Shown one piece after another: positions 2,617 to 57,439 of a DNA stretch of 64,000 bases. The position numbers and the translations under genes are program-made. Source of the stretch: Clostridia bacterium. Lineage in GTDB: Bacteria > Bacillota_A > Clostridia > UBA1212 > UBA1255. The notes beneath the pieces are model-generated. The model saw nothing but the letters and a program-made list of their open reading frames with translations, searched no databases and was not told the origin of the DNA. The first letter of the stretch is position 1, and each line of letters starts with the position of its first letter. Location: NCBI GenBank assembly GCA_017522515.1, contig JAFWZH010000259.1, positions 1 to 64,000 of the forward strand, written 5' to 3'.

Positions 2617-2718
2617 CTATATAAACAAAAAAGTAGAGCATATAATGCCTGAAATCTGGTAAGAATTGTCATATTAAGGGATATTTTCCATTTTTTTTGA
2701 AAAAAAACGGCGAAAAGA

Positions 2719-2749
2719 TTTGCAGGTATAGAAAAATGTTGTACTTTTG
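2719..2749 (+). promoter_or_regulatory. Promoter of tRNA-Asp
   Basis: TTTG at 2719-2722, 19 bp, then TACTTTTG at 2742-2749. This matches the Bacteroidetes sigma-ABfr consensus. An A/T-rich UP-like tract lies upstream (2691-2707). The tRNA 5' end is 38 bp downstream. Confidence 0.85.
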
Positions 2750-2787
2750 CACTCGCAATCAGGAAATGAGAGCGACAACGACAAAAT

Positions 2788-2864
2788 GGTGTGGTAGTTC
2801 AGCTGGTTAGAATACATGCCTGTCACGCATGGGGTCGCGGGTTCGAGTCCCGTCCATACCGCCA
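2788..2864 (+). tRNA. tRNA-Asp (anticodon GTC)
   Basis: A 77-nt cloverleaf. The acceptor stem GGTGTGG pairs with CCATACC (one G-T wobble). The anticodon loop CTGTCAC puts GTC at 2822-2824, the T-arm is GCGGGTTCGAGTCCCGT, and the gene ends in an encoded CCA. Its last 17 bases come from or are shared with the inserted element: the 15-bp core 2848-2862 recurs at 57440-57454. In the integrated state the gene has lost its own downstream terminator, which now sits 54.6 kb away at 57458. Confidence 0.97.
2848..2862 (+). repeat. attL core (15-bp direct repeat)
   Basis: TCCCGTCCATACCGC at the 3' end of tRNA-Asp is identical to 57440-57454. The flanking bases differ on both sides (G versus T before, C versus A after), so the identity is exactly 15 bp. 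Confidence 0.93.
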
Positions 2865-2949
2865 AATTTGATTTTACATTTGATTAGCGAACTGGCGTGT
2901 TCGGAGAATGGAGATCAAATTAAAAGACACATTAAAATATTTTATTATA

Positions 2950-3069
2950 TTTTAATGAATTATGCAAAAGAGTAAATTCACTGTGAAGTGCGTTTATTCT
3001 ACTTTCTTTGTTTTATTCTTCTTTTCGTCGAAAGCGATGCAAAATTACATACTTTATTCTAAAAAACAA
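2950..3069 (-). promoter_or_regulatory. Outward promoter and ICE leader motif, copy A
   Basis: On the minus strand, TTG (3067-3069), 19 bp, then TAATTTTG (3040-3047) form a good Bacteroidetes promoter. Downstream is a small dyad TTCAC/GTGAA (2977-2987), then the leader motif GCATAATTCATTAAAA (2965-2950). This is the same sequence that precedes four ICE operons. Here it is followed 17 nt later only by a 5-codon ORF (MCLLI, ATG at 2932) and then by attL. In a circular ICE the transcript would cross attP and reach the primase gene at 57405 after roughly 220 nt. Confidence 0.65.
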
Positions 3070-3137
3070 GTTTGTAATATGATTTTTTCGCTTTGTAACT
3101 AAAAAGTTTGTCACTATATTATGTAACTGCTGATTAA

Positions 3138-3193
3138 AACTTCCCAAGTTTTGCGGAATTTCAGAAATCAACTTCCCAAGTTTTGCGGAATTT
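3138..3193 (+). repeat. Pair of 24-bp direct repeats at the left end
   Basis: The 24-bp sequence starting AACTTCCCAAGTTTTGCGGA occurs at 3138-3161 and again at 3170-3193, identical, with 32-bp spacing (about three helical turns). Position 290 bp inside attL and in-phase spacing suggest arm-type integrase or excisionase sites. The binding protein is not known from sequence. Confidence 0.75.
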
Positions 3194-3286
3194 TCCATCC
3201 GTAAAAGTTTGAGTAATAAAATTTTGTGAGCCGTACCCTCTTATAGTTCTTTTCTTTTTTTTTGACGATAAAAAGGAAACCGAAAA

Positions 3287-3318
3287 ATTGCAGGATTCGG
3301 AAAATAGAGCTATCTTTG
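3287..3318 (+). promoter_or_regulatory. Strong rRNA/tRNA-like promoter facing into the ICE
   Basis: ATTG (3287-3290), 20 bp, TATCTTTG (3311-3318), preceded by a T8/A-rich UP-like tract, closely resembling the tRNA-Asp promoter at 2719. Just after the expected start is a dyad CCACT/AGTGG (3321-3336). About 90 bp on, a hairpin with A8/T8 arms (3373-3410) could end the transcript. A short untranslated RNA is possible, otherwise this is the leader of the RepL-like gene. Confidence 0.55.
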
Positions 3319-3372
3319 CACCACTGATTTAAGTGGTTCGGTTTGTGGATTGTGAAATTCGTAATACGAAAT

Positions 3373-3410
3373 AAAAAAAAGAGGACTTGGCAACAATTTC
3401 TCTTTTTTTT
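3373..3410 (+). terminator. Hairpin with A8GAG/CTCT8 arms (possible terminator or attenuator)
   Basis: An 11-bp stem, AAAAAAAAGAG (3373-3383) with CTCTTTTTTTT (3400-3410), 16-nt loop. The T8 of the 3' arm also serves as the U tract and overlaps the TTTG of the next promoter (3408-3411). It separates the strong promoter at 3287 from the RepL-like gene. Confidence 0.5.
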
Positions 3411-3440: not shown

Positions 3441-3463
3441 CGGAACACTTGAGTCAGTGAACA

Positions 3464-4582
3464 ATGAAGAAGAAGACAAAAAAAGAGGTTTTAGTCAATT
3501 TGTTACCGGACTTAACCTACTACAGCAAACAAGGTAACTTCAAAAGAAAAGTCAGTATGGGAAGGTTCATTCCTGATGCTGTTAACTATCCCAATAACAA
3601 AGAGTTGAGTCCAGCGAAAATTTATGATGAGTTGGATAAACTTCGTCTAAAAGAGAATGCTGATGATGCTGGACTGATGGAGATCAGGAGTCTGATAAAG
3701 GATGAAAGAAAGTTTGTCAGGTTGCACCAAACATGGGAAACAAAGAATCTGTTTGAAAACTTTATGACCATCAGATCTGCTCATTTGCTTGCCTATATTC
3801 TTGATTTCATTCAGATCGACAAGAAAAATAATCTGAATGTTATCACTTTTGACAAGAATATACTTTGGAAGAAATACTTCTTTAATTGTGACAGTACCTA
3901 TAACAATGCTATTAACGACTTGATTTTCGGAGGATTGATATCAAGACCTCAAGGAAAACGGCAGGCTATGACATACTATGTTAACTCTAATATATTGAGC
4001 TGTGGAGGTGTGAAGCCTGACGATGAATCAGAGGGAATAAAAAAGAAAATTAAGATCTTGACTAAAAAGGAGTTAAACAAAAAAAATATAGATTCAAGTA
4101 TTCTTGATGTGATTACTCCTCAGGCAGATCAAAAAAGCGGTAAAACGAAAATTGCAGCTTATGTCGAAAAGAGCGATAACAGATCTGCAGTTCCATTTTT
4201 TAAGTTATACCGAAACAAATTCTCAAAGTCTCTTCTTAATATAAAGAAAAAGTCCTCATTCAGGATATTAGCCCTTATTACAGGACAATTCCTTCCAGAG
4301 GACGATGATAATGCGAGATTGATGCGAGAAATGATTATGACGTCGTTAAATTGCAAGAAATCAAATTATTATAGTTCTATCGCTGATATGATGAATGCGG
4401 ATTTGATTTATATGGACGTTAAATCTAAACAGTTTAAATTCAATCCGAATGTCTGGTTTAACGGTTGCGTAGTCAAGCTGATTGACAAACGTTTCAGAAC
4501 TCGTCGAGAGATTAAACGAGACAATTTCATTCAATATGAAAACAGAAGGCTGGCTGATTGTTTGACTGATATAGTCAATTAG
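3464..4582 (+). CDS. RepL-like winged-helix protein, putative replication initiator
   Basis: Length 372 residues. It has two RepL-style units in tandem. The first, about residues 90-185, runs from FENFMTIRSAHLLAYILDFI to TYYVNSNILSCGG. The second, about 245-345, runs from FFKLYRNKFSKSLL to FKFNPNVWFNG. Each looks like a winged helix followed by the N-x-x-F/L-x-x-G tail seen in RepL replication proteins. The function could be replication initiation of the excised circle or transcription control; there is no catalytic motif. It is the only left-end gene on the plus strand and converges on the integrase with a 4-bp gap. The family call is by pattern only. Confidence 0.5.
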   Translation: MKKKTKKEVLVNLLPDLTYYSKQGNFKRKVSMGRFIPDAVNYPNNKELSPAKIYDELDKLRLKENADDAGLMEIRSLIKDERKFVRLHQTWETKNLFENFMTIRSAHLLAYILDFIQIDKKNNLNVITFDKNILWKKYFFNCDSTYNNAINDLIFGGLISRPQGKRQAMTYYVNSNILSCGGVKPDDESEGIKKKIKILTKKELNKKNIDSSILDVITPQADQKSGKTKIAAYVEKSDNRSAVPFFKLYRNKFSKSLLNIKKKSSFRILALITGQFLPEDDDNARLMREMIMTSLNCKKSNYYSSIADMMNADLIYMDVKSKQFKFNPNVWFNGCVVKLIDKRFRTRREIKRDNFIQYENRRLADCLTDIVN

Positions 4583-4586
4583 AAGG

Positions 4587-5657
4587 TCATTTCTTTTTTT
4601 TTTCATTGTCATTAGTGGAGGTTCTGGAGGACTCCCACGCATTCAGTTTGTTCATTTGCTCTTGTCTGGCAGAATCCATCACATCGATGTACGGTTTTAT
4701 CCCTCGATAGGTCGTATGTCCAGTCCATTTCATGACCATCTCATGTCTGATATCTAAATGAAGGCAAAGGCATACGAATGTACGTCTCGCTGTGTGGGAA
4801 CTCATAGCTTGCCAGAGTCTTGTCCTGGTAACAATTTTTGCTGTGCCGGAATACTGGGTTTGTTCTATGATACGCATAAATCTTAGTTTGCGTGCAATCC
4901 TTTTTAGTATTTTGTTGTATGTGATGGTATATTTGGGGATATCGAATACCAAATGTGAAGACTTGCTCTTGAAATGCTTGAAAAGAATATTTTTTGATAC
5001 ATTGTTTAATTCGACGTAGGTAAGATGGGATGTCTTCTGTGATACAAATGCGATCCTGTTTTCTTTGAATTCTACTTCATCCCAATTAAATTTGATGAGA
5101 TCTGAAAACCTTAAGCCTGTAAAACAAGCGAATACGAAAGAGTCTCTAACTTCTTCCGCAATCCTTCCCTCATTAGATATGTCGGCTCTGTAGAATGCCT
5201 GTAATTCTTCTATTGTTAGATACACAACCTTTTTTTGAATTGTCTGTAGTCTGGGTTCTTCAATCTTTCGTACTACGCCATTGACAATATAGCCTTTGTC
5301 TCCTAACCAATAAAGGAACTTTTTATAATAGATAAACCTTTTGTGGATTGTTGTATTTTTCAGCTTTTCAGATATCAGAAATTCATAGAAGTCATCAATG
5401 CCTTCATGTGTTAAATAATAGTAAGACAAAACAAAATTTTTGTCCTTACCATTAGAAATCAGCCATAATCTAAATTTCATAAGACTTTTTCTTGTTGTCT
5501 CAAAGGTTTGTATTGAACTCTGTTTTAGGCCAGAGCGTTTGATACTCATATCTTGGAATGTCTCCCAGAGTATCATTACATTATCTATTTTTTCGTCCAT
5601 GTTTATATTTTTGTTTTTATAGTCAACAAAAATAGTGGCAGATAATTTCTCAATCAT
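4587..5657 (-). CDS. int: Tyrosine recombinase (ICE integrase)
   Basis: Length 356 residues with a SAM-like N-terminal domain (about 30-125) and a catalytic domain bearing R183 (TGLRFSDL), the beta-hairpin K near 208, H288xxR291 (SHTARRTF), H314 and nucleophile Y323 (GHTTYRGIKPYI). It would cut and join the 15-bp cores in tRNA-Asp and attP. The gene starts 36 bp after the stop of traM on the same strand with no clear promoter between, so it may be the last gene of the tra operon. An alternative ATG at 5600 (residue 20) is possible. The 3' end lies 1.7 kb from attL. Confidence 0.93.
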   Translation of the reverse strand: MIEKLSATIFVDYKNKNINMDEKIDNVMILWETFQDMSIKRSGLKQSSIQTFETTRKSLMKFRLWLISNGKDKNFVLSYYYLTHEGIDDFYEFLISEKLKNTTIHKRFIYYKKFLYWLGDKGYIVNGVVRKIEEPRLQTIQKKVVYLTIEELQAFYRADISNEGRIAEEVRDSFVFACFTGLRFSDLIKFNWDEVEFKENRIAFVSQKTSHLTYVELNNVSKNILFKHFKSKSSHLVFDIPKYTITYNKILKRIARKLRFMRIIEQTQYSGTAKIVTRTRLWQAMSSHTARRTFVCLCLHLDIRHEMVMKWTGHTTYRGIKPYIDVMDSARQEQMNKLNAWESSRTSTNDNEKKKK

Positions 5658-13127: not shown

Positions 13128-13175
13128 TTTTAATGAATTATGCATTTTGTTCTCTTGAAGAACGATACAAAAATA
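13128..13175 (-). promoter_or_regulatory. tra operon promoter and leader, copy B
   Basis: Minus strand: -7 box TATTTTTG at 13175-13168. At the expected transcript 5' end is a stem-loop GTTCT/AGAAC (13149-13163), then GCATAATTCATTAAAA (13143-13128), then 9 nt to the ATG at 13118. The -33 element is weak. Confidence 0.7.
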
Positions 13176-15057: not shown

Positions 15058-15131
15058 TTAATGAATTATGCTTTTATGTCCTTTTCTAGAAGGACAATGC
15101 AAATATACTACTTATACTCAAATATCAAAAA
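15058..15131 (-). promoter_or_regulatory. parA promoter and leader, copy C
   Basis: Minus strand: TTTTTG (15131-15126), 18 bp, TATATTTG (15107-15100). A stem-loop GTCCTT/AAGGAC (15078-15095) lies at the expected transcript 5' end. The motif GCATAATTCATTAA (15071-15058) ends 10 nt before the parA ATG at 15047. Confidence 0.75.
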
Positions 15132-22222: not shown

Positions 22223-22275
22223 TTTTAATGAATTATGCATTAGCAAAATTACATATATTTTGTTAGTTTTGACAA
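22223..22275 (-). promoter_or_regulatory. Mobilisation operon promoter and leader, copy D
   Basis: Minus strand: TTG (22275-22273), 21 bp, TAATTTTG (22251-22244), then GCATAATTCATTAAAA (22238-22223), then 8 nt to the ATG at 22214. Unlike copies B, C and E there is no separate stem-loop, because the motif begins almost at the expected transcript start. Confidence 0.72.
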
Positions 22276-42680: not shown

Positions 42681-42729
42681 TTTAATGAATTATGCGTAAA
42701 TGGAATACTCCCATTTATGTGCAAAGTTA
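42681..42729 (-). promoter_or_regulatory. traN operon promoter and leader, copy E
   Basis: Minus strand: -7 TAACTTTG (42729-42722). A 5'-end stem-loop AAATGG/CCATTT (42698-42716) follows, then GCATAATTCATTAAA (42695-42681), then 10 nt to the traN ATG at 42670. The -33 element is weak. Confidence 0.72.
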
Positions 42730-43612: not shown

Positions 43613-43867
43613 TTATAGAGGGTCATAGTCAGTATCAAAAAAACTTTTGATTATTACCTTAGCTCCTTTAGGATCACACAACAAAATAAAACTAAAGATC
43701 TTAATCAATCTTGATAAGTATAAGAGAATATAGCCAATAGGACGCAATAGAAAAACGATTAGTAAAAACAACCATAATAGAATTTTGCCAAAAGTGCCAA
43801 CTTCATAAAATACCAAGCCCAAATATTTATTAATAATAAAATCAAAAAACTTTTTAATTGTGTTCAT
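43613..43867 (-). CDS. Small two-helix membrane protein, end of right-arm operon
   Basis: Length 84 residues. Hydrophobic stretches lie near 25-42 and 43-64 (GKILLWLFLLIVFLLRPIGY, then ILLYLSRLIKIFSFILL). The C-terminus is charged. It overlaps the stop of the methylase-helicase gene by 4 bp, so it is the last gene of that operon. No family recognised. Confidence 0.6.
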   Translation of the reverse strand: MNTIKKFFDFIINKYLGLVFYEVGTFGKILLWLFLLIVFLLRPIGYILLYLSRLIKIFSFILLCDPKGAKVIIKSFFDTDYDPL

Positions 43868-46800
43868 CTGTTTATCTTTGTTATGATTTTATTCATATCT
43901 TCATAAATACCTTCTTCAAGCCTTTCCTGATTGAAGTATTTCATATTAGAAATGGTTTCCGTTATTTCAAGAGTCTTTTTCTCCTTATCAACCTTCGCTT
44001 TGGCAAAAATTTGTTGAAATACAGGATTCTTAGCCAATGCTGGATTCTGATATTTACTTTCTGCAATTTCAAATGAACGATTTATTCTGTTGTAATCACA
44101 ACGCAACATCTGAATCTGATGGTATTCACTGGCAATATCGTTCACAATTGATAGAGACTGAACGTCAATGTCAACTCTTTGTCGTCTGATATTACTAGGA
44201 AGAACGTCATAATCAACTAGCTTTATATTGCTATCTGTCTTTTTTATAGTTTCTTTAATAAGATTAAGACTACCTTCGTAATCAATCGATTTGTCTTCGT
44301 TAATATATTTACCTGACGTATATTCATCTAATGCAAATAAAAGAATTTGTCTTTTTTCATTGTCTTGTAGACAATTTGATATGATTGATTCAAATTGTTT
44401 TCCTACCGTTGCATCTTCTAGAATCTGCTTGTAGATTAGTGATTCGCTTAAATTCTTTCCTTGTTCGATGATTGATTTAAGTGCATGTTCATCAGACATA
44501 GAAAGATTTGATTTTGACTCAATGAGTTTCATATCTCGTAATTGTTCGCTCAACATGTCAATCTCGTTTTCATTAAAACAAGAAGAAATAACAATTATAG
44601 TATTGTCATCTAATTCTCCATTTTGGTGATGCCATATAAGCTCATAGGCTGGTGAGATTACAGAATTAAGTTTATCTAGGATTTCTTCTACACTTTCTTT
44701 TTGTGACTCGTCGATCATCATTTGCTCGCTAACAAGAGACACTATTTCCTCTCCTCCATCTCGATACATATTACGAGATTCAATTAATTCTGTATAGTTT
44801 ATCTTTCCTTGTTCGAATTGATCTATAATTGTTTCACTTAATGACAAGGATTTTTTTATAGCAACAACAGATGAATCAATTTCCTGAATTTTTTCTTTTT
44901 CTATAGAAAGCAGTTCACTTAGACTATACGTCTCAGCTGTGCTATATCCAGTCCAGTCTTCAGATAATCCGTTTATATAATCATCGCCATCCCAAGACAG
45001 TACGGATATGGTTCGAGTCCCATAGATATTAAAAGTTCCTTCTTCATTGATTCCAGAACCTTCAAAATAGTTTTTAAATGCTTTTCTTGCACCATTAGCG
45101 ATATCTCTAACCATTTTCTCATATATTTCAGAGTTAATGTTGTTAGCACAAACCTCAAATTGTTTTGTAGACATGAATTTTTTTGATAATTCCATATCTT
45201 CTTCAAGAGAATATGTTCCATCAGGTATTCCAATTTTTGAAAATCTGCTCTGCCACATTGGAAGCTTAGATTCAACTCTGTCTGCATAAGGAAATTCATA
45301 CTTGTTCGGTTCCATTTGATTATTCTCATTTTTAATTTCTTCAACGACAATGGAAGATTCGTCTTCAGAAATATGATTTGAATCATTTTCTGTTATCTCT
45401 ATCGTTTCAATGTCTTCTACGGCATTGTTATCTTTTTTATTGTCAAGAAGACGTCGCTCAAAAATGTTAAACCCATTTTTGAGCCTATTATAATCATTTT
45501 GCGATATGATCCCCTGTGTTAACAACTCGTCTTCAATGAATTTTATTTCTGTTCCATTAGCAACATTAACAGCATATTCAATATTAGGATGTAAGGTGTT
45601 CACATCCTTGCAGTCAAAAATCTTCTGTTCTGATTGACCTTCCGAAATAAGAACTCCCATTAAATAATCTCCTTCAGAATTAGAAACATACCTGTATGGA
45701 TAGAATTTGCCACAGTTATGATTGTACTTGTCAAGAATACTGTATTCAAAAAGAGCTATATTTAGATGATCAAGAGACAATTCTTCTTTATTCTCACTCA
45801 ATTTTCTACACTGAGATGTAATAGCTTCAAGTGTATTATATGCATCTTCTTTTTTATCTATGTCGGCATCACGATCAAGCGGAGCAAGTAATTTCTTTTT
45901 TTCTTCATCTCCGATTATTAAAGAAAGCAAAATATCATTTTCCAACGATAAAAATTGAGATGATGTTTGAGCGACAGAAATGGTCTTAAATTTAATGTCG
46001 TTGATTGCTGAAATTAGCACTCCTCTATTTTCTTTATCTGACGAAATAAGATCTTCTACTAATTCTTTAAATTCAGAAGCTTGTGAACGAGAGTAAATTT
46101 TCCTTCCATTATTCTCAATTGATTCGCATTCGTCCCATTTTTTACTAAGGGTAGTTAGAATATCTCCTTTGTCGAAGATCTGTACTTTTTGAGATTGAAT
46201 TGTGTTTAATTCTTCTTTTAGTTTCTCATTGCTTGTATGATATCTTGACTCCTGTGACAATTGATATTTGATCAAATCTCCGAAAAGATGAGCTAGTTTG
46301 TCGTCTGACAAAGAAAAGTCTATTTCTTTTTCAAGAATATTAACTTGTTCTTTGTTAAATTCAATACTCATTTGCTCTCCCTCTTTTACCGTTCGATTAC
46401 TTATGACAATATCTTTTAGGTTATTGATCTTAATAAAAATTTTATTTTCTGATCCTTTTCCTTCTATGGTTCCATCAATGCCAAACGCACTGATTTTTGC
46501 TTTTCGATTACTATGTTCAAAAGACCTTATCGCCTTGGCAATTGATTTTATATTAGAATATTCAACCCCATCGATATTCAGATAAACAGAATCTTTTTTT
46601 ACTAATGAATTTTCAAACAAATCCTGGTTGTCTTTATCTTTTACTTTAGCAAGCCTTTCTGCGTAAATGGCATCCGCTATTTTGCTATTATAAAATGCAC
46701 AATTCTCTTTTAGATAGGTGGCATTTGCTTGTAAATCATTAAGAATAGCAGTATTCTTTTCATATGCTTTTTGTGTTTTAGCTAATTTTTTCTCTCGATC

Positions 46801-49800
46801 ATCGACTTGATTTCTTGATCGGGTTTGCTCTGTTTCCAGCTGGGTGATTTTATCTTTAAGTGACTGTTTTATTTCAAGGTTAAAATTAGAGTTAAGATTG
46901 GCCATACACTCTTCAGCACTTACACTTAATTCTCCATTTGCGTCAGTTGCAAGTCCTTTGCTAACAAAATCTGCGTTTCGTTCTATAGTCGTTCCATTCT
47001 TAATACTACGGATCATATTACCTTTGCGGATGATTTTGTCGTACATAAAAACATCGTTTGAATTTTCTTGTGTGAAACGATATGCTTTTATTCCGCCCCA
47101 TTTGTCCAGAAGCTCTTTGGGAATTTTATTCCCTTGACGCATCATTCGGCCAAGTCTTTGTTCGTCGTCAGAAGCTTTCCATGGAGCATCAAGCATTATT
47201 CCTCCTACAATGCTTTCTTGCAAATTATTCCCCACGCCCATTGACTCAGAAGACCCTATAACAACTCTGTATTTTGCTGAATTAATGCCGCTAATAAGTT
47301 GTTCTTTCTTTTTATTGTCGGCACCATAAGTTGAGTTATTAAAAAATACAATTTCATTAGCTGGAATACCAGCTTTAATTAAATCTTTCTTTAATACCTC
47401 ATAGAATGACCATTTATGATGGGTTTTTGTTTCATCTTTAGCTCGTTCTAATTGAACAATGATATCTTTGGCTTCTTTTCCTAGAATCTCATCTTCAAGA
47501 TCATAATTGTTTCTTATATGATCAATCATATTGTCAATATGATTGTTAAGTTCATCATTTTTAAGATACTCATAATCATCTTCACCTGACTCTCCACCGT
47601 TAGTTTTCTTTTTTAGACTTGCCATCATAATCTTAAGATCTTCGTCTAATGCGATAAACTTATTGTGGTTTTCTAAAAGTGATGTAAACACAATCTCTTT
47701 TTTCTCATATCTTGCGTTACTAACTTGATCGCAGAATATAAGTTGCACACCTTTGTATTCTTTGCCATTGAAAACGCCTACAGTCTCATCATACCTGTCT
47801 TTTATCATCTTAACACACGTCTCTCTTTTAGAGTTACGTGTGAGCAAACTTACAGGTATGTTGTAATCTGTCGCAATCGTTTTGAGAACCTCTTGAGGAA
47901 TCACAAAGTCAACGTCAACCGTTCCTCTTCTGGCAATAGATATTGCAGTAAGAGACAATGCCTTTCTTTCCCCTTCTGTAAGTTTTATATATTTTAATTC
48001 ATTAAGTGATCTTGCTGGCTCTTTATGAGAACTAATTGCTTTTTGATATTCAAGAATTAATTTAATATCTTCTGTAACTGCATAATAAGCAGATGACGAA
48101 GGAATCATGATTTGCTCCACGTTCCCCTTTGGTCTGTTTTTTAGTAGAAGAGGAGTATTTTCTGTATCGACAACATTTGCGAGAGTCATATACATTGGAG
48201 ATAAAGCGTTTATGTTACTTATCTTTCCATAAACCTTTTGTCTTCTTGGTGTTCCGATTGCATCATATGTTATCTCTTCTGTTGGAGGATAAAATGTATT
48301 TTCGAAATTTTTGTCATCCCATCCAGCTTTTTTTAGAAAATTGGGCTTTATATACTTGAAATATACCAGCATTTCGGTAATGGCATTTGTTATGGGCGTT
48401 CCTGTTGCCATGACAATGCCAGTATCAGTATTGTTGTTAAGGGTATGGATATAATGACACAAGCTCATCATATTTTTAGCCTTGTTTGAGCTTTCTGCAA
48501 CACCTGAACCTTGTGTCATTTGTTTTCCTGTCTCTGTTGCAAGATTTTTATATCCGTGGGCTTCATCGACACAGAAAAAATCGAACCCTAAATCACTAAT
48601 TCCAATTTTTGTTTTTTTGTCTTTTTCTTCTTGGATCTCAAGGAGTTTTAGATTCTCATGTAATTTTGAGATTCTTTTTCTTATCTCATTAAGAACAGTT
48701 TCATATTTCGTTGACTTTTGATTATCAGATAAAATAGCATCCATCAATTCATTTTGGTATACAATATCTCGTTTTATATCTATTAATTCAGCGTTTGGCA
48801 CATATATATGAGCAAGAGCTGATTCTGTCATAACACATAAGTCAAAGTCCTCATTTTTTATACTTTTTAATGAATTGGCAATGCTATTGTTTTTACCATC
48901 ACCTGCCATTACATATACTATTTTCGTATTTTCAAAAGAAGACTCCAAATCTTTTTTAATTGATGCAATGTTGTTAGGACGAACAATCATAACAGGACGA
49001 TTGCACATATTCATCTTCTTCATTGTTTTCATAAGTGATGCCATTGTCAATGTTTTTCCAGCTCCAACTGCATGATCAAGTAGACCTGTTCTATTATATA
49101 ACATCTGTGCTATTGCCCGTCTCTGATAGTCATATAAATCTTTGCGTAAACCGTCAACTTGGATAAAAGATCCGTCAAACTTAGGAACGACATAAGAATT
49201 AAGAGAATCATTATATTTTTTCTCAACAATTGCAGAATGTCCTGGTGTGTTTTTTATAAATCTTTTCAGTAATTTGTTAAGTTCAACGAACAGATTCTTT
49301 GCTTCAAATTCCCAAATTCCTTTTCTTTTAGCATAGACCTCATATGATTCATCCTTTTTCTGACGAGTTCCAAATGTTGCAACTCCCCCTTGAACAAAAC
49401 AATCTAATGCGTTATTCAATCTTTTTAGTTTAGACGATACAGAATCTTCACTATCAAATGGCATGCCCTCAGATAAGGACAAACCAAATTTAGATGCAAT
49501 TTGGTTAAAATATTTATTTTCATTTTTCCCTCTCGATACACATTCTATAGTACAAAGAGTTTCATTGAACTGGAATGTGTAAGAATTAGTTCCTATTCCT
49601 TCATTAATTGCATCACAAAAAGAAGAATATATTTCTTTACTAATATATGGTAATCCGCCTTGAATATCAATTTCGTCTATTGTAAGTCGTTTGGGCATGG
49701 CTTCTTTCAAAGCTGATATGTTTTCAGCGTATTTCTCTGCAAGACCTGATGACTCTATATAATTAATTTTGTCAGCAATGTTACCTGACAAATAGATATT

Positions 49801-51909
49801 CTTAGGAATAAACTTTTCTTCTTCAGGACAAAAGAAAATTTCTCCTTTGCATATATCTTGCCAATTAGCTCCAAAATTTTCTTCTAGATACGCAATGTCA
49901 ATTTCTCCGAATTTCTTATTCATCGAATACAAGACATGCTCCTCTATGGAAGTAGGTAATTTTTGCTTGGAATTAACGAAGATATTTCGTTCTAAAATAC
50001 TTGCTACAACGATTTTCCCTTCTTCATTTTTCTTCTCTAAGAGTATGATGTCAAGAAAATCTTTATCGTAATCTTTAATGAATTGAATTTCTTTATTATC
50101 AAAAAGATTACCATTTTTTTGTATGAAATTTTCATATATGTTTTTTATATGAACAAGACTTTTATCAAAATCTTCACTATCCTTTATTCCTGCATTATCC
50201 TTTGCTATTTTACGATGAGTTTTGTATGCATTTCTCAACTCAATGTAGTCACATAAAATAGATATTTGTTTATCAGATAATCCTTCAATTTTTTCTATGA
50301 CTGAGGATTGTTCCCCATATTTAGAATAAGTAAAATATTCTACGTATGGAACTTTTATTCCGTTTTCTTCTATTATTATCGCATTTCGATTGAATGTTGT
50401 TGGAATGTTTTTAACTTCATCAACAGTTTGTTGTTCCGGAATTATACTCAAAAATTCACCTTCTTCTTTAATTTGATCAAGTATTGTACTTTTTATTTTG
50501 ACACTTAAATCTTTCAGATCTTTAGAAGAAAGAATATTTGATGGATTCTGATTGTCAATGTCAATCGATTTGATTGGATTAACAAAAAAGTCTTTTTTGA
50601 CAAATTTTCCAAGAGCTCTAGTGCCGATTGATAGATTTCCTAAAATAAGAGAATCTTTATTTACTACTTCTTCCTTATTATTAGCTAATGTTTTATATGA
50701 CTCTATAAAAAGATTGTTTACATATCTAGTGTTATAAGAATTGATAGAATCTCCTTTTTTGTCTGGGTTCTTTTCTATAATGGTAACTGCATTACTTTCT
50801 ATGAAGTCGAATTTCTGTATCTTGTCTTCACCTTTTTTCCATTTGCGGAAAATTAGCAAATCACATTCTGTTTGCTCAGAATCAACAAAAATTCCAGAGG
50901 GAAGACGAACTACACCTATCAACTTGGCTTGATTGGCAATTTCTTTTCTTACTTCATTTCGGCTGTTGTCTAGGAATCCAGTACTGGTAATGATCACACT
51001 CATTCCGCCTTCCTTTGTTTGCTCCAACATCTTCATAATGTAATAATTATGAAGTGAGTTTTTGGCCATTTTTTGTGCTGATGATTTATAATCCCAAGTC
51101 AAATCTACAACATTGAGGGAGTTTCCAGAAAAAGGCACATTAGTGGCTGTTATATCAAAATCTTTTTTTAGATTCCTTACGTCTTGTAAGGCACTATTGA
51201 TGGTATTTACATAAGGATATAGTATTTTAGTCGTTAAACTGGCTAATATATCTATATCTATGCCTGTTATGTTTAATCTTTTGTCTTCATAGTCTTTGAC
51301 GAATGCCCCCATGCCAACCGCAAAATCTCCCAATTTTTGACCATTTTGCAGACCTGCTGATTTGACTATATCTGCTAATATGGAAGTTATTTCTTTAGGT
51401 GTATAATAACTGGTGTTTTTACTATAAGCATCACTTAATGCATTGTTGTTATTTTTCCCATGTACAGAATCACATAAATCTTTCCATAAATTGGAGATTG
51501 TCGTTTCTGCATGTTCGTTATCCTGACTATATTCTGGAGACAAACATTTGTATTGAGTTGCATAGTATTTAGGGGATTCGTATGCATATGTCGAGAAATA
51601 TCGAAACAGTTTATCTTTTACTGATGAATTGTTTCGATTTAATCCTGTAATGTCGTCTGTAAAATTTTTAACAAAGAAACGCAAAGTCTCGTTTTCTTTT
51701 TCTGTGAAAGAAAATAAATTAATTCCTTTTGCTTTTGCATATTCATTAAGATAGGCTGTGCCTACAATTGTCTCAGTTCCATTTCTGAATTGACCAATTC
51801 CCAATCTGTTTTTCAGATTTCTGATTTCATTTTCATCGTAATGTATATCATTGATAGATTTGTGCTTATAACCTTCTATCTTATTATCAGTTAAAATATC
51901 ATTTTTCAT
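43864..51909 (-). CDS. Giant N6-methylase-like / SNF2 helicase protein (DarB-like)
   Basis: About 2681 residues from the ATG at 51909. The frame is open to a TTG at 51957, but that part lies in a 17-bp hairpin. In numbering from 51957, the methylase-like domain has GDFAVGMGAF near 214 (motif I) and TNVPF near 275 in place of NPPY/F. The helicase motifs are HAVGAGKT near 962, CVDEAHGYKN near 1130, MATGTPITN, and DEQRLGRMMRQGN near 1602. The last 1000 residues are mostly coiled coil. Similar proteins (DarB of phage P1, large ICE methylase-helicases) protect incoming DNA from restriction. The altered motif IV may mean altered catalysis. Confidence 0.85.
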   Translation of the reverse strand: MKNDILTDNKIEGYKHKSINDIHYDENEIRNLKNRLGIGQFRNGTETIVGTAYLNEYAKAKGINLFSFTEKENETLRFFVKNFTDDITGLNRNNSSVKDKLFRYFSTYAYESPKYYATQYKCLSPEYSQDNEHAETTISNLWKDLCDSVHGKNNNNALSDAYSKNTSYYTPKEITSILADIVKSAGLQNGQKLGDFAVGMGAFVKDYEDKRLNITGIDIDILASLTTKILYPYVNTINSALQDVRNLKKDFDITATNVPFSGNSLNVVDLTWDYKSSAQKMAKNSLHNYYIMKMLEQTKEGGMSVIITSTGFLDNSRNEVRKEIANQAKLIGVVRLPSGIFVDSEQTECDLLIFRKWKKGEDKIQKFDFIESNAVTIIEKNPDKKGDSINSYNTRYVNNLFIESYKTLANNKEEVVNKDSLILGNLSIGTRALGKFVKKDFFVNPIKSIDIDNQNPSNILSSKDLKDLSVKIKSTILDQIKEEGEFLSIIPEQQTVDEVKNIPTTFNRNAIIIEENGIKVPYVEYFTYSKYGEQSSVIEKIEGLSDKQISILCDYIELRNAYKTHRKIAKDNAGIKDSEDFDKSLVHIKNIYENFIQKNGNLFDNKEIQFIKDYDKDFLDIILLEKKNEEGKIVVASILERNIFVNSKQKLPTSIEEHVLYSMNKKFGEIDIAYLEENFGANWQDICKGEIFFCPEEEKFIPKNIYLSGNIADKINYIESSGLAEKYAENISALKEAMPKRLTIDEIDIQGGLPYISKEIYSSFCDAINEGIGTNSYTFQFNETLCTIECVSRGKNENKYFNQIASKFGLSLSEGMPFDSEDSVSSKLKRLNNALDCFVQGGVATFGTRQKKDESYEVYAKRKGIWEFEAKNLFVELNKLLKRFIKNTPGHSAIVEKKYNDSLNSYVVPKFDGSFIQVDGLRKDLYDYQRRAIAQMLYNRTGLLDHAVGAGKTLTMASLMKTMKKMNMCNRPVMIVRPNNIASIKKDLESSFENTKIVYVMAGDGKNNSIANSLKSIKNEDFDLCVMTESALAHIYVPNAELIDIKRDIVYQNELMDAILSDNQKSTKYETVLNEIRKRISKLHENLKLLEIQEEKDKKTKIGISDLGFDFFCVDEAHGYKNLATETGKQMTQGSGVAESSNKAKNMMSLCHYIHTLNNNTDTGIVMATGTPITNAITEMLVYFKYIKPNFLKKAGWDDKNFENTFYPPTEEITYDAIGTPRRQKVYGKISNINALSPMYMTLANVVDTENTPLLLKNRPKGNVEQIMIPSSSAYYAVTEDIKLILEYQKAISSHKEPARSLNELKYIKLTEGERKALSLTAISIARRGTVDVDFVIPQEVLKTIATDYNIPVSLLTRNSKRETCVKMIKDRYDETVGVFNGKEYKGVQLIFCDQVSNARYEKKEIVFTSLLENHNKFIALDEDLKIMMASLKKKTNGGESGEDDYEYLKNDELNNHIDNMIDHIRNNYDLEDEILGKEAKDIIVQLERAKDETKTHHKWSFYEVLKKDLIKAGIPANEIVFFNNSTYGADNKKKEQLISGINSAKYRVVIGSSESMGVGNNLQESIVGGIMLDAPWKASDDEQRLGRMMRQGNKIPKELLDKWGGIKAYRFTQENSNDVFMYDKIIRKGNMIRSIKNGTTIERNADFVSKGLATDANGELSVSAEECMANLNSNFNLEIKQSLKDKITQLETEQTRSRNQVDDREKKLAKTQKAYEKNTAILNDLQANATYLKENCAFYNSKIADAIYAERLAKVKDKDNQDLFENSLVKKDSVYLNIDGVEYSNIKSIAKAIRSFEHSNRKAKISAFGIDGTIEGKGSENKIFIKINNLKDIVISNRTVKEGEQMSIEFNKEQVNILEKEIDFSLSDDKLAHLFGDLIKYQLSQESRYHTSNEKLKEELNTIQSQKVQIFDKGDILTTLSKKWDECESIENNGRKIYSRSQASEFKELVEDLISSDKENRGVLISAINDIKFKTISVAQTSSQFLSLENDILLSLIIGDEEKKKLLAPLDRDADIDKKEDAYNTLEAITSQCRKLSENKEELSLDHLNIALFEYSILDKYNHNCGKFYPYRYVSNSEGDYLMGVLISEGQSEQKIFDCKDVNTLHPNIEYAVNVANGTEIKFIEDELLTQGIISQNDYNRLKNGFNIFERRLLDNKKDNNAVEDIETIEITENDSNHISEDESSIVVEEIKNENNQMEPNKYEFPYADRVESKLPMWQSRFSKIGIPDGTYSLEEDMELSKKFMSTKQFEVCANNINSEIYEKMVRDIANGARKAFKNYFEGSGINEEGTFNIYGTRTISVLSWDGDDYINGLSEDWTGYSTAETYSLSELLSIEKEKIQEIDSSVVAIKKSLSLSETIIDQFEQGKINYTELIESRNMYRDGGEEIVSLVSEQMMIDESQKESVEEILDKLNSVISPAYELIWHHQNGELDDNTIIVISSCFNENEIDMLSEQLRDMKLIESKSNLSMSDEHALKSIIEQGKNLSESLIYKQILEDATVGKQFESIISNCLQDNEKRQILLFALDEYTSGKYINEDKSIDYEGSLNLIKETIKKTDSNIKLVDYDVLPSNIRRQRVDIDVQSLSIVNDIASEYHQIQMLRCDYNRINRSFEIAESKYQNPALAKNPVFQQIFAKAKVDKEKKTLEITETISNMKYFNQERLEEGIYEDMNKIITKINR

Positions 51910-51926
51910 ATTTTCTATGTTTATAT

Positions 51927-51964
51927 ACGAGCTTTGAACTTCCATCTGGAAGTCCAAAACTCGT
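51927..51964 (-). promoter_or_regulatory. 17-bp stem-loop in the leader of the methylase-helicase gene
   Basis: ACGAGCTTTGAACTTCC (51927-51943) and GGAAGTCCAAAACTCGT (51948-51964) pair along all 17 positions as minus-strand RNA, with two G-U wobbles and a 4-nt loop. It lies between the stop of the 606-residue gene and the chosen ATG, and contains an alternative ATG at 51945. No U run follows, so it is more likely a processing, stability or translation-control element. Confidence 0.75.
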
Positions 51965-51991: not shown

Positions 51992-53812
51992 TTACTTGCC
52001 AATCTTGATGGTTTTTCTTTCGTTTTCAAGATTTTGTACCTTACTTTCTTTTGCTTTCTCCATTTTAAGGAAATCGCTGATTTTGAGGACTCCTTTGGCA
52101 AGAATGTGCTCTTGTACTGAATTTACAAGCTCATGGCATTCCTCAAGCGAACGTCCTTTAATAGGATATTGTCTTTGCTCTAATTCTCCAGTTTGTTGAT
52201 TAACTTTTTGCATTATGTCAGCAGAGGAGAATCCAATAGACATTGATCCTCTGTCGGAAATGACAAAACCTCCTAATTCTCTAACTTGGGAACATATTTC
52301 TTTCATCGTTTTGTTATCAAGATTATCTGTCTTAAGACGGATCATGACAACTTCAGGAGCATCTTTGATTGTGTATGTCAGATTTTGAGTTAAGTTATGA
52401 TACTCCTTTTTTTCCGCATTAATAAGTACTTTGATTTCGTTATCCATCTGATTTAAGTACTTCTGACATGTTGTTGCTCCTACTTCTAATGATGCAATTT
52501 TAGACTGCAACATACTTGCCTTAAATTGCAATTCATCAAGATCTACTTGCCTATCTTCTTTAGAAAGTCCATTTTTTGTTGACGTTACAAATGTCGCTTT
52601 GATGCTCCCATCTGCGTACTCTTTCCAGGAGTTCTCTTTTAGTTTGAATCCGTATTTTTCTGCGTCACTTGTTATTTTTGCACCTTTAGGCAAATGGTTG
52701 ACTTCAACGGAAACAAAATCTTTGTCTTCTTTAGCGGAAATGATAGTATCAACACTCATTACCGATGTCGTACCGTTTAACTTTGATGTTAATGTTTGAA
52801 CTTCATCCCTAACTTGCAAAGCTGTTTCCAAATCATTGTTGGGAATAATGATCTGACGAGAAGTATAATTGTTTCCTTGTTTTGATACCTTCTCTTCAGA
52901 AACAATCGTCAATCCCTTTTCTTTAAGAAATCCCTGTAATCTTTCTAACTCAACTTTGTTAGAATCTTTTCCCATGTCGACATTTTTGTCAATATATACA
53001 GGAATAATTAGAGAATCCAATCCTTCTCGACGAATACCTCTCATCTTGAAGTTCTCTTTTACAATGGAATCAAGTTCCTTCTTAAATGTCATCATGCATT
53101 CGTATGCATCTTTTTGAGACACAAAAGTGCGAAATTCCCTCACCTCTCGTCCGTTCTGGATGTCGTTGTTACGAGCTTTCTCAAGGAAAAAGTCGCTATA
53201 CTTTATTGGAAAAGTGATTATTGTAGAATGGTACATCGACGTGGAAAGCTTTGCAATACCATTCTCTTTGACTTTGTCAGAAAGTGATTTGAACTGTTCT
53301 GGTGTGAGTTCGTTATTGTTGTAAATCAACCTTACCTCATTGTCCGATACTGTAACTCGATACTTTGTCAAACTGTATTCGGAACGGATCTTGGTGGCAG
53401 ATACAATTACAGCATCTTCATTAAGTTCTGGATTGTTACGATTCAAACCAATAAAATCATTTGCGTCGGTTTCTGACGCAAACTGAAAAGAATATGTGTT
53501 CTTCTCCATATCGTTATCAAACACAATATCTTTAATCGCTTTTGTCATGTATACACCATGACATTGTTCGCAGACAGTTTTGATCGCATGAAACTGAGAT
53601 GGAGTTAATTTTTCATCGCTGATTGTGACTACGACTCCAGCATCAATGCCATCAAGATCCTTTTTTTCTGTTGATACAGCCATGTTCTGCATCATGTTCC
53701 ACACCTTTCCAAGAGTGATGTCTGCACTCTTCTGAACTTCTTCTGAATGAGAAGCTGTTACCTGATTGTCTGGATTTAAGACAAATTCAGGTGTTACATT
53801 TTCGTTTGCCAT
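51992..53812 (-). CDS. Hypothetical protein with repeated alpha/beta domains
   Basis: Length 606 residues, cytosolic. Several segments share a beta-strand/helix/beta pattern built on L-T-P-x-Q-F or similar (VVVTISDEKLTPSQFHAIKTVCEQCHGVYM near 60; IYNNNELTPEQFKSLSDKVKENGIAKL near 170; VMIRLKTDNLDNKTMKEICSQVRELGGFVI near 510). This suggests tandem copies of one small domain, with a coiled-coil region near 425-480. It precedes the methylase-helicase by one hairpin. Function unknown, possibly its partner. Confidence 0.65.
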   Translation of the reverse strand: MANENVTPEFVLNPDNQVTASHSEEVQKSADITLGKVWNMMQNMAVSTEKKDLDGIDAGVVVTISDEKLTPSQFHAIKTVCEQCHGVYMTKAIKDIVFDNDMEKNTYSFQFASETDANDFIGLNRNNPELNEDAVIVSATKIRSEYSLTKYRVTVSDNEVRLIYNNNELTPEQFKSLSDKVKENGIAKLSTSMYHSTIITFPIKYSDFFLEKARNNDIQNGREVREFRTFVSQKDAYECMMTFKKELDSIVKENFKMRGIRREGLDSLIIPVYIDKNVDMGKDSNKVELERLQGFLKEKGLTIVSEEKVSKQGNNYTSRQIIIPNNDLETALQVRDEVQTLTSKLNGTTSVMSVDTIISAKEDKDFVSVEVNHLPKGAKITSDAEKYGFKLKENSWKEYADGSIKATFVTSTKNGLSKEDRQVDLDELQFKASMLQSKIASLEVGATTCQKYLNQMDNEIKVLINAEKKEYHNLTQNLTYTIKDAPEVVMIRLKTDNLDNKTMKEICSQVRELGGFVISDRGSMSIGFSSADIMQKVNQQTGELEQRQYPIKGRSLEECHELVNSVQEHILAKGVLKISDFLKMEKAKESKVQNLENERKTIKIGK

Positions 53813-53885: not shown

Positions 53886-54497
53886 TTAATGTGCCAGGAA
53901 AAATGATTTCTCTATTTCCTGACGCTCCTCGTCCTGTGAATTGAGTCTTTTTAGTTTTTCTCCATAAACCAAATAAAGATTTGCCAAATCATTCATCTTT
54001 TTTTGATACTTTAGTATATGTGGTTTGATTATATTGAAATAATCATTTATGTTTTTATCTCTTTCTTCTTTATTGACTCCTACTTTTGTTATATCCTTAA
54101 ATTGTTCAATCAACATTGTTAGAATTTCCTTAAGAGAAACAACCCTGTCAAGAACAAAACGTGCTTCATTAACTTTATTTATTAGACCCTGAAAAAAATA
54201 AGTTGTCATATTTAGATTGTTGCTAATTGTGATGATTTCAGTCTGCAATGCTTCCAAATCGCAGAATTTACGATGAAGATCATTGTATATCTGACTCACA
54301 CAAGTTAAAGGGATTGGACTATAAAACATTGTTGCGATTTGTTCTACAGAGCCAGCAATCTCTGTTAGAATGACATTTCCTAATTTTATTACTGTTTCTG
54401 CGAATCCGACCTGAATCCAACGAACCTGATATTTAGAAAACAACTCATCGTTAAGTTGATCTTCTGTTATGTGTAATAATTCTTCCATTTTTTTCAT
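53886..54497 (-). CDS. Hypothetical helical protein of the right-arm operon
   Basis: Length 203 residues, mostly helical, with no motif I recognise. The central FFQGLINKVNEARFVLDRVVSLKEILTMLIEQF and C-terminal LYLVYGEKLKRLNSQDEERQEIE look like coiled coils. It overlaps the upstream gene by one base. A 73-bp gap follows, with no separate promoter seen. Confidence 0.6.
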   Translation of the reverse strand: MKKMEELLHITEDQLNDELFSKYQVRWIQVGFAETVIKLGNVILTEIAGSVEQIATMFYSPIPLTCVSQIYNDLHRKFCDLEALQTEIITISNNLNMTTYFFQGLINKVNEARFVLDRVVSLKEILTMLIEQFKDITKVGVNKEERDKNINDYFNIIKPHILKYQKKMNDLANLYLVYGEKLKRLNSQDEERQEIEKSFFLAH

Positions 54498-56323
54498 TAT
54501 CTAATTTTTACACCAGCACCTTCTGTTTGATATATGTTTTTCTCTGGTAGGACATCTTTTTTGTTGAAAATCTTAAGAACTAAATTTGTCTTTGCTTTAA
54601 ACGATAAGTCTTTTGCTTCTTGTCTTGTTTGATTGTTGATTGATAGATTTGTCAAAGCAATATCAGCATTTTTTGTTTTGCCATTTTTTGTTTGATATTC
54701 TATGTTCAAAGATTCTCCAGCTCGAAGTCTCAGTAAGTCTTTGTCGCTTAAATTATATTCGTTTTTTATTTCTTCTAGAAGAAGATTGGGTAATCGTTCA
54801 ATCTTCACTTCGTCTCCTTCTTTTCTGACAACAAAATCTTGTCCGTCTTTTGAGACGAAGTATCTATTGTTTTTTTTTCTGTCTTCTTTTTGCTCCGATG
54901 TTAAGTCTGTTTTTAATAATTCTATTTTATTATTATCTACAGTTACGACTTTATAATCACCTTCTTCATTTCGAATAAGTTTGAGTCTTCCTTCTGTTGA
55001 AATATTCAATATATTGCTGTCATCTCCACATGGAGTTTTGATACTCATAGTGGAAGTCTCCTGTCCCATAATGAATCTTTCGTAATTGTTATCTTTTTGA
55101 AGCATTGATTTTGTGATTCCAGTATTCTTCTCTATTGCTTTCCAGTTGATATTCTTCTCAATTTCAGCAATAGGAATGTCTAGATTTTTTAGTTGCGAAT
55201 ATTCAGATTTTAAAATTGAGTTCTCGTCCTCAAAATCTTTTGTAGTTAACCAATTTGCTTTTTGGGATAATTCAACATCGATATTGGCTATATCATCTTG
55301 AGTCAATGCTATATCGGAGTGATTTAATATATCTTCTATCGTTGATATAGAATTCTTTTCGACTTCAAATGTGTCGATTTTAAGATTCTTGTCTTTATAT
55401 TTTTCGAGATCTAATGTAAATGCTTGATTTTCTTTTGAACATACATTAAAACTCACATTTCCATCTTTATCTTCTATCCTGGTAACAATACGGAGTTCTT
55501 TTGTTTGTTCTGTTTCTAATTTTTTTTCTTGTGAATTTCTTATACTTTCCCAGATTTCTTCAATATCTCCTTTGATCTTCAATTCATGATAGAAGGAAGT
55601 AAGAAAAGCAAGAAGATAATCTTCTTTCATGACATCTATATCTCTATGTATAGAAGAATGTTTTTTATTTGTGTTTTTTTGTGAAGATTCTTCTTTAGTA
55701 ATGTCTATTGCATCTTTTGCTATTTCTTCTGGAATAACATTACTTTCTTCTTCCTTTTTATCGTTTAATCCTTGTGTTTGGATTTCACTGGTAAGACTGT
55801 TCTCGTCTTGATCTTTAACATCGGATTCAATGTGTGACGAAACGTTAGATATATTTGTAATAACATTGTCCTGAGAAACAAGAATAGAGTCTGAAGTCAA
55901 TCCTTTTTTTTCGGCCCATTCTTTATTCTTCCCAAGAAAAGCTTCTCCGCTCATTAAAGAATTTTCCCATACCGCCAGTAATGTTTTTTCTTCTTCGTTG
56001 TATTCAAAATTTGTTCCTGCATAATTTAATTTTATGCACATATCTTCCGCCGCTTTCTGTTCGGCTTTTGTTAATATTAAATCTTTAATCTCAACATATC
56101 CATACTCTCTTTCTTCTTCAGGCCTGCTAACATATCCGATTTCAACTTTGTCTTTGTCCATGTCAGCAAATTTCTTCCAGAGATCACAAACCATAATGTT
56201 TTTGTCAATAGGCATAACCTTATTGGTTTCTTCTGGAGAAGAAATCTCGTTTTTTTCATTTGAAGATCCAAGAATGCTGTTAAATACTTCTTGGTTTATT
56301 TTAGAATAATCTATTTCCTCCAT
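54497..56323 (-). CDS. DUF4099/DUF3945-type ICE protein
   Basis: Length 608 residues. The N-terminal 60-300 is acidic and low-complexity. The C-terminal part matches the pattern of DUF4099 and DUF3945 proteins common in Bacteroidales elements: an NWKAIEKNTGITKSMLQKDNNYERFIMGQ unit near 395-425, then LPNLLLEEIKNEYNLSDKDLLRLRAGESLNI and an NADIALTNLSINNQTRQ strand region near 540-575. The biochemical role of the family is not established. Its stop and start overlap those of its neighbours by one base each, so translation is tightly coupled. Confidence 0.65.
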   Translation of the reverse strand: MEEIDYSKINQEVFNSILGSSNEKNEISSPEETNKVMPIDKNIMVCDLWKKFADMDKDKVEIGYVSRPEEEREYGYVEIKDLILTKAEQKAAEDMCIKLNYAGTNFEYNEEEKTLLAVWENSLMSGEAFLGKNKEWAEKKGLTSDSILVSQDNVITNISNVSSHIESDVKDQDENSLTSEIQTQGLNDKKEEESNVIPEEIAKDAIDITKEESSQKNTNKKHSSIHRDIDVMKEDYLLAFLTSFYHELKIKGDIEEIWESIRNSQEKKLETEQTKELRIVTRIEDKDGNVSFNVCSKENQAFTLDLEKYKDKNLKIDTFEVEKNSISTIEDILNHSDIALTQDDIANIDVELSQKANWLTTKDFEDENSILKSEYSQLKNLDIPIAEIEKNINWKAIEKNTGITKSMLQKDNNYERFIMGQETSTMSIKTPCGDDSNILNISTEGRLKLIRNEEGDYKVVTVDNNKIELLKTDLTSEQKEDRKKNNRYFVSKDGQDFVVRKEGDEVKIERLPNLLLEEIKNEYNLSDKDLLRLRAGESLNIEYQTKNGKTKNADIALTNLSINNQTRQEAKDLSFKAKTNLVLKIFNKKDVLPEKNIYQTEGAGVKIR

Positions 56324-57405
56324 TATTTTTTCTTTTTTATAGTTGATGTAGCATCCTCATTGATCCTTTGGAAATCAAATTCTAAATCACAATCTGTAAC
56401 TAATTTATGAATCAACCGATTGTTCTTGATTATTTCAATTTTGCTATAACAATATTTCCAGAAGTCATTCAAATCTCCAAAATTGCTGTATTTATATCGC
56501 AGATCTTTTACCCTTTGTTTGCCGAATGTTTCTGTGAAGTATCGGGTCGCAAGAGCCCCAGCTTCATCATTGTCTAGGCAGAGATATATCGTTTGAGAAA
56601 AATTCAATGCTTCTAATGCTTTATTTTTCAAACTTGTTGAATTCAGTACAAGGTAATTAAATTGATTTATATCTAATCCTTTGTATTTCATCATTTCTAT
56701 GAATGAAAGCATATCAAAGAACCCTTCAAACACACAAACTGATTGCTTGTTGTTATGATAGTAAGTGATATCTTTAGTGATTTTTTCTCCTGTAGTATTT
56801 CCTATCAGTTTGATGCTTGTATTTCTAATTTCAAAATGATTTTTTGTATTGGTAGGAAATCCTACAGCGTTATATGTCTGATTGCTTTTTTTATTGTAAA
56901 GAGTTATTTGTTTGCAAAAAGTGTTCAGAGTTTCCTGGCTGATACCTCTATCTTGAGCGTATTTGATTATTTCTTTGTCGGAAAACGAAGACAGGTTTAT
57001 AATTCTGTTATTGTAGACAGGAATATTATTTACTCCTATTTCGTCTCCTAATTCTTCAAGCTTTTTTTTGTTTCTACTATATTGATGATTGAAAGAGTTA
57101 TTCGTGTTGTAAGAAACCACACCTCCTAAGAGGTTGTTGCAGTATGCTATGATTGTTTTAAAGTCTGTAGTCCCGATGAATCTTCCTACCAAATCAATGA
57201 TAGAATAACCTTTGTCGTTCAAGTCGTTTTCGGAAAGATCTTTCCAGATTTTGCCATCTCTGGATATTGTCAAAGAAGGATGAACATCATCTCGAAATGG
57301 AGAATGATATAGATACCCAGAAGACGTATGCCTAACAGGTTCTATGCCATTGTTCTTTAAGAACTCAACACAGGTAAGCTGATCCTTGATTTGGGTAATG
57401 TTCAT
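56323..57405 (-). CDS. Toprim primase-like protein (TraP-type)
   Basis: Length 360 residues. The N-terminal CVEFLKNNGIEPVRHTSSGYLYHSPFRDDVHPSLTI has the layout of a CHC2 primase zinc domain but lacks the C-H-C-C ligands. The Toprim domain has VCVFEGFFDMLSF near 223 and YLCLDNDEAGALATRYF near 278. It likely primes the transferred strand in the recipient. It is the first gene inside attR. The 34 bp between its ATG and attR contain no TAnnTTTG box. An in-frame TAA 6 bp upstream excludes a fusion across attP. Confidence 0.85.
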   Translation of the reverse strand: MNITQIKDQLTCVEFLKNNGIEPVRHTSSGYLYHSPFRDDVHPSLTISRDGKIWKDLSENDLNDKGYSIIDLVGRFIGTTDFKTIIAYCNNLLGGVVSYNTNNSFNHQYSRNKKKLEELGDEIGVNNIPVYNNRIINLSSFSDKEIIKYAQDRGISQETLNTFCKQITLYNKKSNQTYNAVGFPTNTKNHFEIRNTSIKLIGNTTGEKITKDITYYHNNKQSVCVFEGFFDMLSFIEMMKYKGLDINQFNYLVLNSTSLKNKALEALNFSQTIYLCLDNDEAGALATRYFTETFGKQRVKDLRYKYSNFGDLNDFWKYCYSKIEIIKNNRLIHKLVTDCDLEFDFQRINEDATSTIKKKK

Positions 57406-57439
57406 ATCTTCTTAATTATTAATTCGTATATGATTACAT

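Follow-up and report, generated by a model that had tools for sequence, protein, structure and literature searches.

Why would an integrated element carry at its left tip a promoter-like sequence that points out into the chromosome with no gene ahead of it, and at its right tip an operon with no recognizable promoter? Both features occur in the 64,000-nt stretch of DNA analyzed here, which we call the window. The original prediction held that excision would join the two ends, so that the operon would be made only from the circular form.

The element and its right-end operon

The window, DNA of a gut-type bacterium, holds an integrative and conjugative element (ICE) of about 54.6 kb, bounded by two exact, directly repeated copies of a 15-bp core, TCCCGTCCATACCGC, at 2848-2862 (attL) and 57440-57454 (attR), neither core being assigned a strand. 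No other site in the window matches this core, even with up to three mismatches allowed. The left core is the 3' part of a tRNA-Asp(gtc) gene (2788..2864, plus strand), the integration target, and family searches identified a tyrosine recombinase at 4587..5657 on the minus strand. Conjugation genes include a relaxase (PF03432), a coupling protein (T4SS-DNA_transf, PF02534), P-loop_TraG (PF19044), TraM, and TraN (DUF4138), together with a weak TraO match below its cut-off. End repeats in a tRNA gene, an integrase, a relaxase, a coupling protein, and T4SS genes of the Bacteroidales Tra type are what is expected of an ICE. In its TraM, TraN (DUF4138), TraG-like ATPase, weak TraO, relaxase, and coupling protein, the element resembles the CTnDOT-type Bacteroidales transposons, these families being the CTnDOT set. 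The TraN and topoisomerase genes, at 37.5-42.7 kb, have their own promoter.

A scan of IMG/VR gave 0 matches to the attP junction of this ICE and found a relative of neither end protein. A plasmid collection held no DNA match to the left end, and its primase matches (27 records) were all below 60% identity. Three other regions of the element may be recorded here. Positions 15172-15585, adjoining a ParA-like gene, hold 23 copies of the 18-bp tandem repeat GTAAAGAAGTTTGCACGA, possibly a partition or origin site and so another replication or partition candidate. A 3,353-aa protein almost without recognized domains is encoded at 25711-35772, with relatives of 58% identity in element G330 and of 54%, over part of its length, in element G001b. 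A likely toxin-antitoxin pair occupies 22858-24494: a 110-aa ORF and, after it, a gene encoding an AbiEii-type nucleotidyltransferase domain (23172-24494).

The right-end operon lies wholly on the minus strand and begins with a Toprim (DnaG-like) primase (56323..57405; Pfam, NCBIfam, and PHROGs searches), the NCBIfam DnaG match of which falls below its cut-off. There follow a 608-aa DUF4099 protein (54497..56323; Pfam), a 203-aa protein (53886..54497) and a 606-aa protein (51992..53812), for which Pfam, NCBIfam, and PHROGs gave no family and no convincing family, respectively, and a 2,697-aa DarB-like antirestriction/helicase protein (43864..51957), with helicase domains from Pfam and a DarB-like antirestriction match from PHROGs. 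These genes are consecutive from 57405 to 43864, with intergenic gaps of at most 73 nt; an 84-aa ORF (43613..43867) overlaps the end of the last. This inventory agrees with the original prediction for DUF4099 and the 203- and 606-residue proteins, and not for DUF3945, which Pfam did not find at E<=0.01. The proposed methylase-helicase keeps its helicase half, as identified by Pfam; the methylase half has a single basis, a match to a PHROGs "DNA methyltransferase" family. Support for the suggested roles of the operon, replication and antirestriction, comes from its Toprim/DnaG-like and DarB-like matches.

In Bacteroidota the promoter consensus has TAnnTTTG at -7 and TTTG near -33, according to a published Bacteroides map (PMC7366714). 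We call a strict box any TTG followed after 18 to 22 nt by TAnnTTTG. The primase ATG lies at 57405, and the 34 nt between it and the attR core (57406..57439, minus strand) contain no promoter box, as had been predicted. TAnnTTTG is in fact absent from the minus strand between 51107 and 61088, and within the operon the minus strand has a single strict box, at 47845 in coding sequence. A one-mismatch box occurs 223 nt upstream of the primase ATG, in host DNA. The best partial box within 170 nt of the ATG matches 6 of 9 positions here and 7 of 9 in five other right ends. A hybrid promoter assembled at attP from both arms was considered and rejected, as it reaches only 6 of 9 in the window.

The outward promoter, its leader, and the left-end gene

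At the left end, a predicted promoter, TTG-N19-TAATTTTG (3040..3069, minus strand), matches the strict consensus and is conserved in two related elements, G001a and G333. As the prediction had stated, the box at 3069-3040 faces out through attL and, in the integrated state, has no gene ahead of it; the first feature beyond it is the tRNA-Asp gene, which is read antisense. No other 30-nt block of the left end is as well conserved as that around its -7 box, with 28 of 30 positions identical between the window and G001a.

How often would such a box arise by chance? Dinucleotide shuffles of the left intergenic region of the window placed a strict outward box within the 250 nt adjoining the att site in 1.2% of cases, and the same test on six left ends gave 1.2 to 2.7% each, the edge of G001b being assumed. 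The window, G330, and G001b together have 59 gene starts preceded by a gap of at least 100 nt (ORFs of at least 100 aa), and 26 of these have a strict box in the 250 nt upstream. In the direction without a gene start, a strict box occurs in 3 of 55 cases, two of them at the left tips of G330 and G001b; the window tip stands outside this count, its box being separated from the nearest ORF by more than 250 nt. Since only 26 of the 59 operon heads have a strict box, its lack before the primase is weak evidence when taken alone. A scan of other primase loci was uninformative, as TAnnTTTG is rare there, with 5 sites on the gene strand in 18 loci; the longest-ORF rule used in that scan also missed the primase start in several.

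With the transcription start set 5 nt past the box, the joined leader in the circle comes to 221 nt, in keeping with the roughly 220 nt predicted. Within it we predict an RNA hairpin (2964..3002, minus strand) of 15 pairs, three of them compensatory and one broken in the window. The hairpin is a consensus fold of three sequences, to which only two lineages contribute; its covariation was reached by 23 of 500 shuffles, and sliding the partners by 2 yields two such pairs, such that the compensatory pairs are modest evidence for the fold. An AU-rich hairpin, CATTAAAATAT..ATATTTTAATG (2930..2957, minus strand), has conserved arms, one G-C pair, and a predicted energy of -7.3 kcal/mol, and is possibly an attenuator or weak terminator; a terminator scan of 2700-3470 called none.

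The leader motif that the prediction placed downstream of the promoter, GCATAATTCATTAA, is present exactly at 2952 on the minus strand (2952..2965). This 14-nt motif occurs five times in the window, always on the minus strand. The other copies lie at 13130..13143, 11 nt before the ATG of a 169-aa ORF (12609-13118); at 15058..15071, ahead of the ParA-like gene; at 22225..22238, ahead of a 130-aa ORF preceding the relaxase gene; and at 42682..42695, ahead of the TraN (DUF4138)/topoisomerase genes. Four of the five leaders have the motif 10 to 11 nt ahead of an ATG; in that of the left end, the closest ATG comes 19 nt after it, and the primase lies far away. The copies are mostly downstream of a small predicted hairpin, and their sharing by five leaders looks, on sequence, like a common RNA-level control of a transfer regulon. 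We infer that the left-end leader may be one of the transfer regulon that the att site has parted from its gene. The idea of a conserved leader peptide downstream of the motif was dropped, as the reading frame, compared by eye, differs between G001a and G333.

The leaders of the relatives vary around this plan. The circle of G001a would also contain an 8/9 box closer to att. In the joined leaders of elements G329 and G330, a hairpin is predicted across att (-12.8 and -16.7 kcal/mol, respectively), and no run of T follows. A different leader motif, TATTACAATT(T)AACTTTAATAAAA, recurs together with hairpins in distant relatives (in G330 at oriented positions 63458-63611, within locus L051); in G330 this motif is found even inside the right-end operon, between the primase and TraN genes, without a strict box.

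Inward of the promoter lie two iteron-like repeats on the minus strand (3138..3161, with the core GCAAAACTTGGGAAGTT, and 3170..3193), a pattern formulated after the sites had been seen. An inward promoter (3288..3318, plus strand) and a second box (3412-3440) precede a gene for a 372-aa protein (3464..4582, plus strand), putatively DNA binding and Rep-like. Searches of Pfam, NCBIfam, PHROGs, and PDB sequences gave no useful match to this protein. A first structure model had a pLDDT of 33, and a second, mediocre model has two winged-helix regions; initiators of the Pi/RepE type bind iterons with two winged-helix domains. Against the model, Pi is equalled or outscored by other winged-helix chains, and to call the protein an iteron-binding initiator is a guess with some support. 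It matched 3 proteins in a protein database by single query and 7 by profile; the profile matched 4, then 5, of 358 genomes of the family (Paludibacteraceae), and among 393 sampled genomes of the order it was found only in genome G001 again. From these few matches we take the protein family to be small.

A layout kept in diverged relatives

The comparison covered seven elements, namely, those of the window, G001a, G333 (left end only), G329, G330, G331, and G001b, the last six coming from genomes G001 (two elements), G329, G330, G331, and G333. A scan of genome contigs had returned a single locus (L001), in a Paludibacteraceae metagenome-assembled genome from horse faeces, whose primase is 85% identical over residues 1-246. 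A primase profile matched 13 of the 358 family genomes, mostly through distant primases. A strict outward box is present at all seven left ends. At none of the six right ends does a strict inward box occur within 400 nt of the primase start codon; a search with the core sequence did not find the seventh, that of G333. At three of the six, the primase is faced by a one-mismatch box, 175 to 333 nt upstream and in host DNA. At the five right tips examined for an outward box, it was absent from all.

The element at L001, G001a, is also inserted in tRNA-Asp, beside an unrelated flanking gene; its left end (L003) has the same promoter and leader as the window, and its primase ATG is 35 nt from the core. 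A second tRNA-Asp with the same 3' core occurs at G001:C6:50625 and G333:C6:13178, where what comes directly after it is not this element but another tRNA-like sequence. G329, G330, and G331 have a different 15-bp att sequence, TATAGAAATTTTAAT, and a different promoter sequence, the box of which ends 26 nt from att; their primase ATG lies 49 to 50 nt inside that att. In this type the promoter is still present, although the insertion target differs and the junction contains no tRNA. For G001b an att site was sought and not found, the element abutting another conjugation-gene fragment, so that its ATG distance of 36 nt is counted from an assumed edge and not from an att site.

The left intergenic regions are 94% identical between G001a and G333, 70 to 71% between the window and these two, 82 to 93% among G329, G330, and G331 (82% for G329 and G330), 67% between G001b and G330, and 53 to 59% between the two types. 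The left ends thus comprise two types, with G001b a diverged member of the second, and are probably related by common descent; they may all share one ancestor, and hence they are not independent inventions. On sequence comparison, the layout is retained while the rest of the left region has diverged. The left-end gene order of G330 is that of the window and its primase is likewise the first gene at the right end, at identities of only 29% for the left-end protein, 26% for the integrase, and 29% for the primase. Its right-end operon encodes the primase, TraN, a 178-aa protein, and a topoisomerase, and G001b has the same layout. Retention of the arrangement in diverged relatives with another promoter and att, and the rarity of boxes without a gene, give good support to that part of the prediction in which a promoter is joined to a promoterless operon.

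Beyond the conserved ends, G330 (oriented 47.7-58.5 kb) and G001b (oriented 48.8-56.8 kb) contain arrays of cargo ORFs, each preceded by a near-identical promoter and leader that differ between the two elements. On contig C68 of G001 (oriented 2-1318), a second TraN-like and TraO-like set adjoins the left flank of G001b, which suggests tandem or nested conjugative elements.

Excision as a probable switch

The excision-dependent reading, that the ICE couples a replication and antirestriction operon to its own excision, is in our judgment probable (roughly 0.75). It is partly supported as a whole: its anatomy is well supported by sequence, from which we also infer promoter activity, silence in the integrated state, readthrough across attP, and the initiator role. 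In the integrated element, the left promoter (3069-3040) would fire across attL, antisense to tRNA-Asp, and no protein would be made from it; the right-end operon, with no recognizable promoter before it and the neighbouring host gene directed away from it, would be silent or nearly so. On excision, attP would join both ends, and one transcript with the leader of about 221 nt would run into the primase gene. Such joining would act in the donor after excision and in the recipient once the incoming strand had been closed and copied. Formation of the circle would also unite the putative initiator, the iteron-like sites, the promoter, and the primase as one continuous replication module. The AU-rich hairpin could stop this RNA in the tRNA-Asp type, and a weaker primase promoter outside the strict consensus is possible.

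Could the left promoter have been kept for an RNA of its own? A stand-alone RNA of about 100 to 120 nt, ending at the AU-rich hairpin, might act in trans on the transfer operons that share the motif, with the primase expressed by other means. Conservation is indeed greater from the promoter to this hairpin than from the hairpin to att, where it falls; the hairpin is followed by a run of 6 to 7 T in G001a and G333; its 3' arm, ATTTTAATG, can by eye pair with CATTAAAAT in the transfer leaders; and the compensatory changes in the leader hairpin would suit a functional RNA. However, the box of the G329 type, 26 nt from att, leaves no room for such an RNA inside the element, the hairpin has a single G-C pair and was not called by the terminator scan, and the primase operon would be left without a promoter. 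We regard this explanation as unlikely. A combined reading, in which one promoter gives two products according to the state of the element, seems to us rather improbable. The integrated form would yield a free leader RNA whose 14-nt motif and complementary arm damp or titrate control of the transfer operons, and the excised form would use the same leader on the replication and antirestriction mRNA, with circle formation again joining initiator, iterons, and primase in one replicon.

That the primase instead has its own non-consensus promoter in or near attR, served by an alternative sigma factor or an activator, with the outward box incidental or a leftover, would be in keeping with the 33 of 59 operon heads without a strict box and with the weak 7/9 matches near five right ends and one-mismatch host-DNA boxes at three. 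In the Bacteroides promoter map, too, a second motif is reported beside the main one (PMC7366714). But the five right ends with a known att leave just 34 to 50 nt of element DNA between the ATG and the core; beyond the core is host DNA, and the flanking proteins of the window, G001a, and the G329 group have no mutual match. An incidental outward box at seven of seven left ends is also improbable, and we give this explanation little credence. Very much less credible is a role for the promoter in the integrated state, as in reading antisense across tRNA-Asp or host DNA, for example to keep host transcription out of the left end. In the tRNA-Asp type the promoter does read through the tRNA in antisense, and by eye a likely-looking tRNA terminator hairpin has been displaced beyond attR, but the G329 type keeps the promoter with no tRNA at its junction.

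Excision-coupled expression, by analogy with Tn916 (Porf7) and ICEclc (Pcirc), is the likely mechanism. An outward promoter without a gene ahead of it, as expected of a circularization-dependent promoter, is indicated by consensus at each left end compared. Pcirc of ICEclc acts across attP in the circle. Published accounts describe it as an outward constitutive promoter and list it for the intB13 transcript (PMC9286271, PMC2892462). The element described here shares with ICEclc an outward-facing promoter at the element end but differs in that its integrase gene is internal (4587-5657) and the first gene of the circle is the primase, whereas Pcirc leads into the integrase gene. In Tn916, a Gram-positive ICE, processing and conjugation genes are promoterless when integrated and are read from Porf7 after circularization, a terminator and an antiterminator RNA accompanying this transcription, according to a published study (PMC11658703). 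As in Tn916 with Porf7/canT, a predicted promoter and an operon that appears to lack one occupy opposite ends of the element. Unlike in Tn916, the operon encodes primase and antirestriction functions, or primase, TraN, and topoisomerase in relatives; the promoter is of the Bacteroidota type; and no clear terminator/antiterminator pair was found. The likeness considered here is one of layout. Among the titles and abstract openings of the literature searched, mostly apart from subscription papers, none described expression across joined ends in Bacteroidota, including CTnDOT-type elements. The principle is known in other mobile elements; what is new here is the unusual cargo placed under the proposed switch, together with an arrangement retained among diverged elements.

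If the excision-dependent reading is right, the logic of Tn916 and ICEclc would extend to Bacteroidota, and the position of a primase gene at the extreme end of the element would be explained. It would mean that a family of Bacteroidales ICEs holds its primase and antirestriction genes off until the element is circular, with excision as the switch, and that some members likewise hold a T4SS gene and a topoisomerase gene off until the circle forms. It would also suggest that antirestriction proteins can be produced in a recipient before integration.
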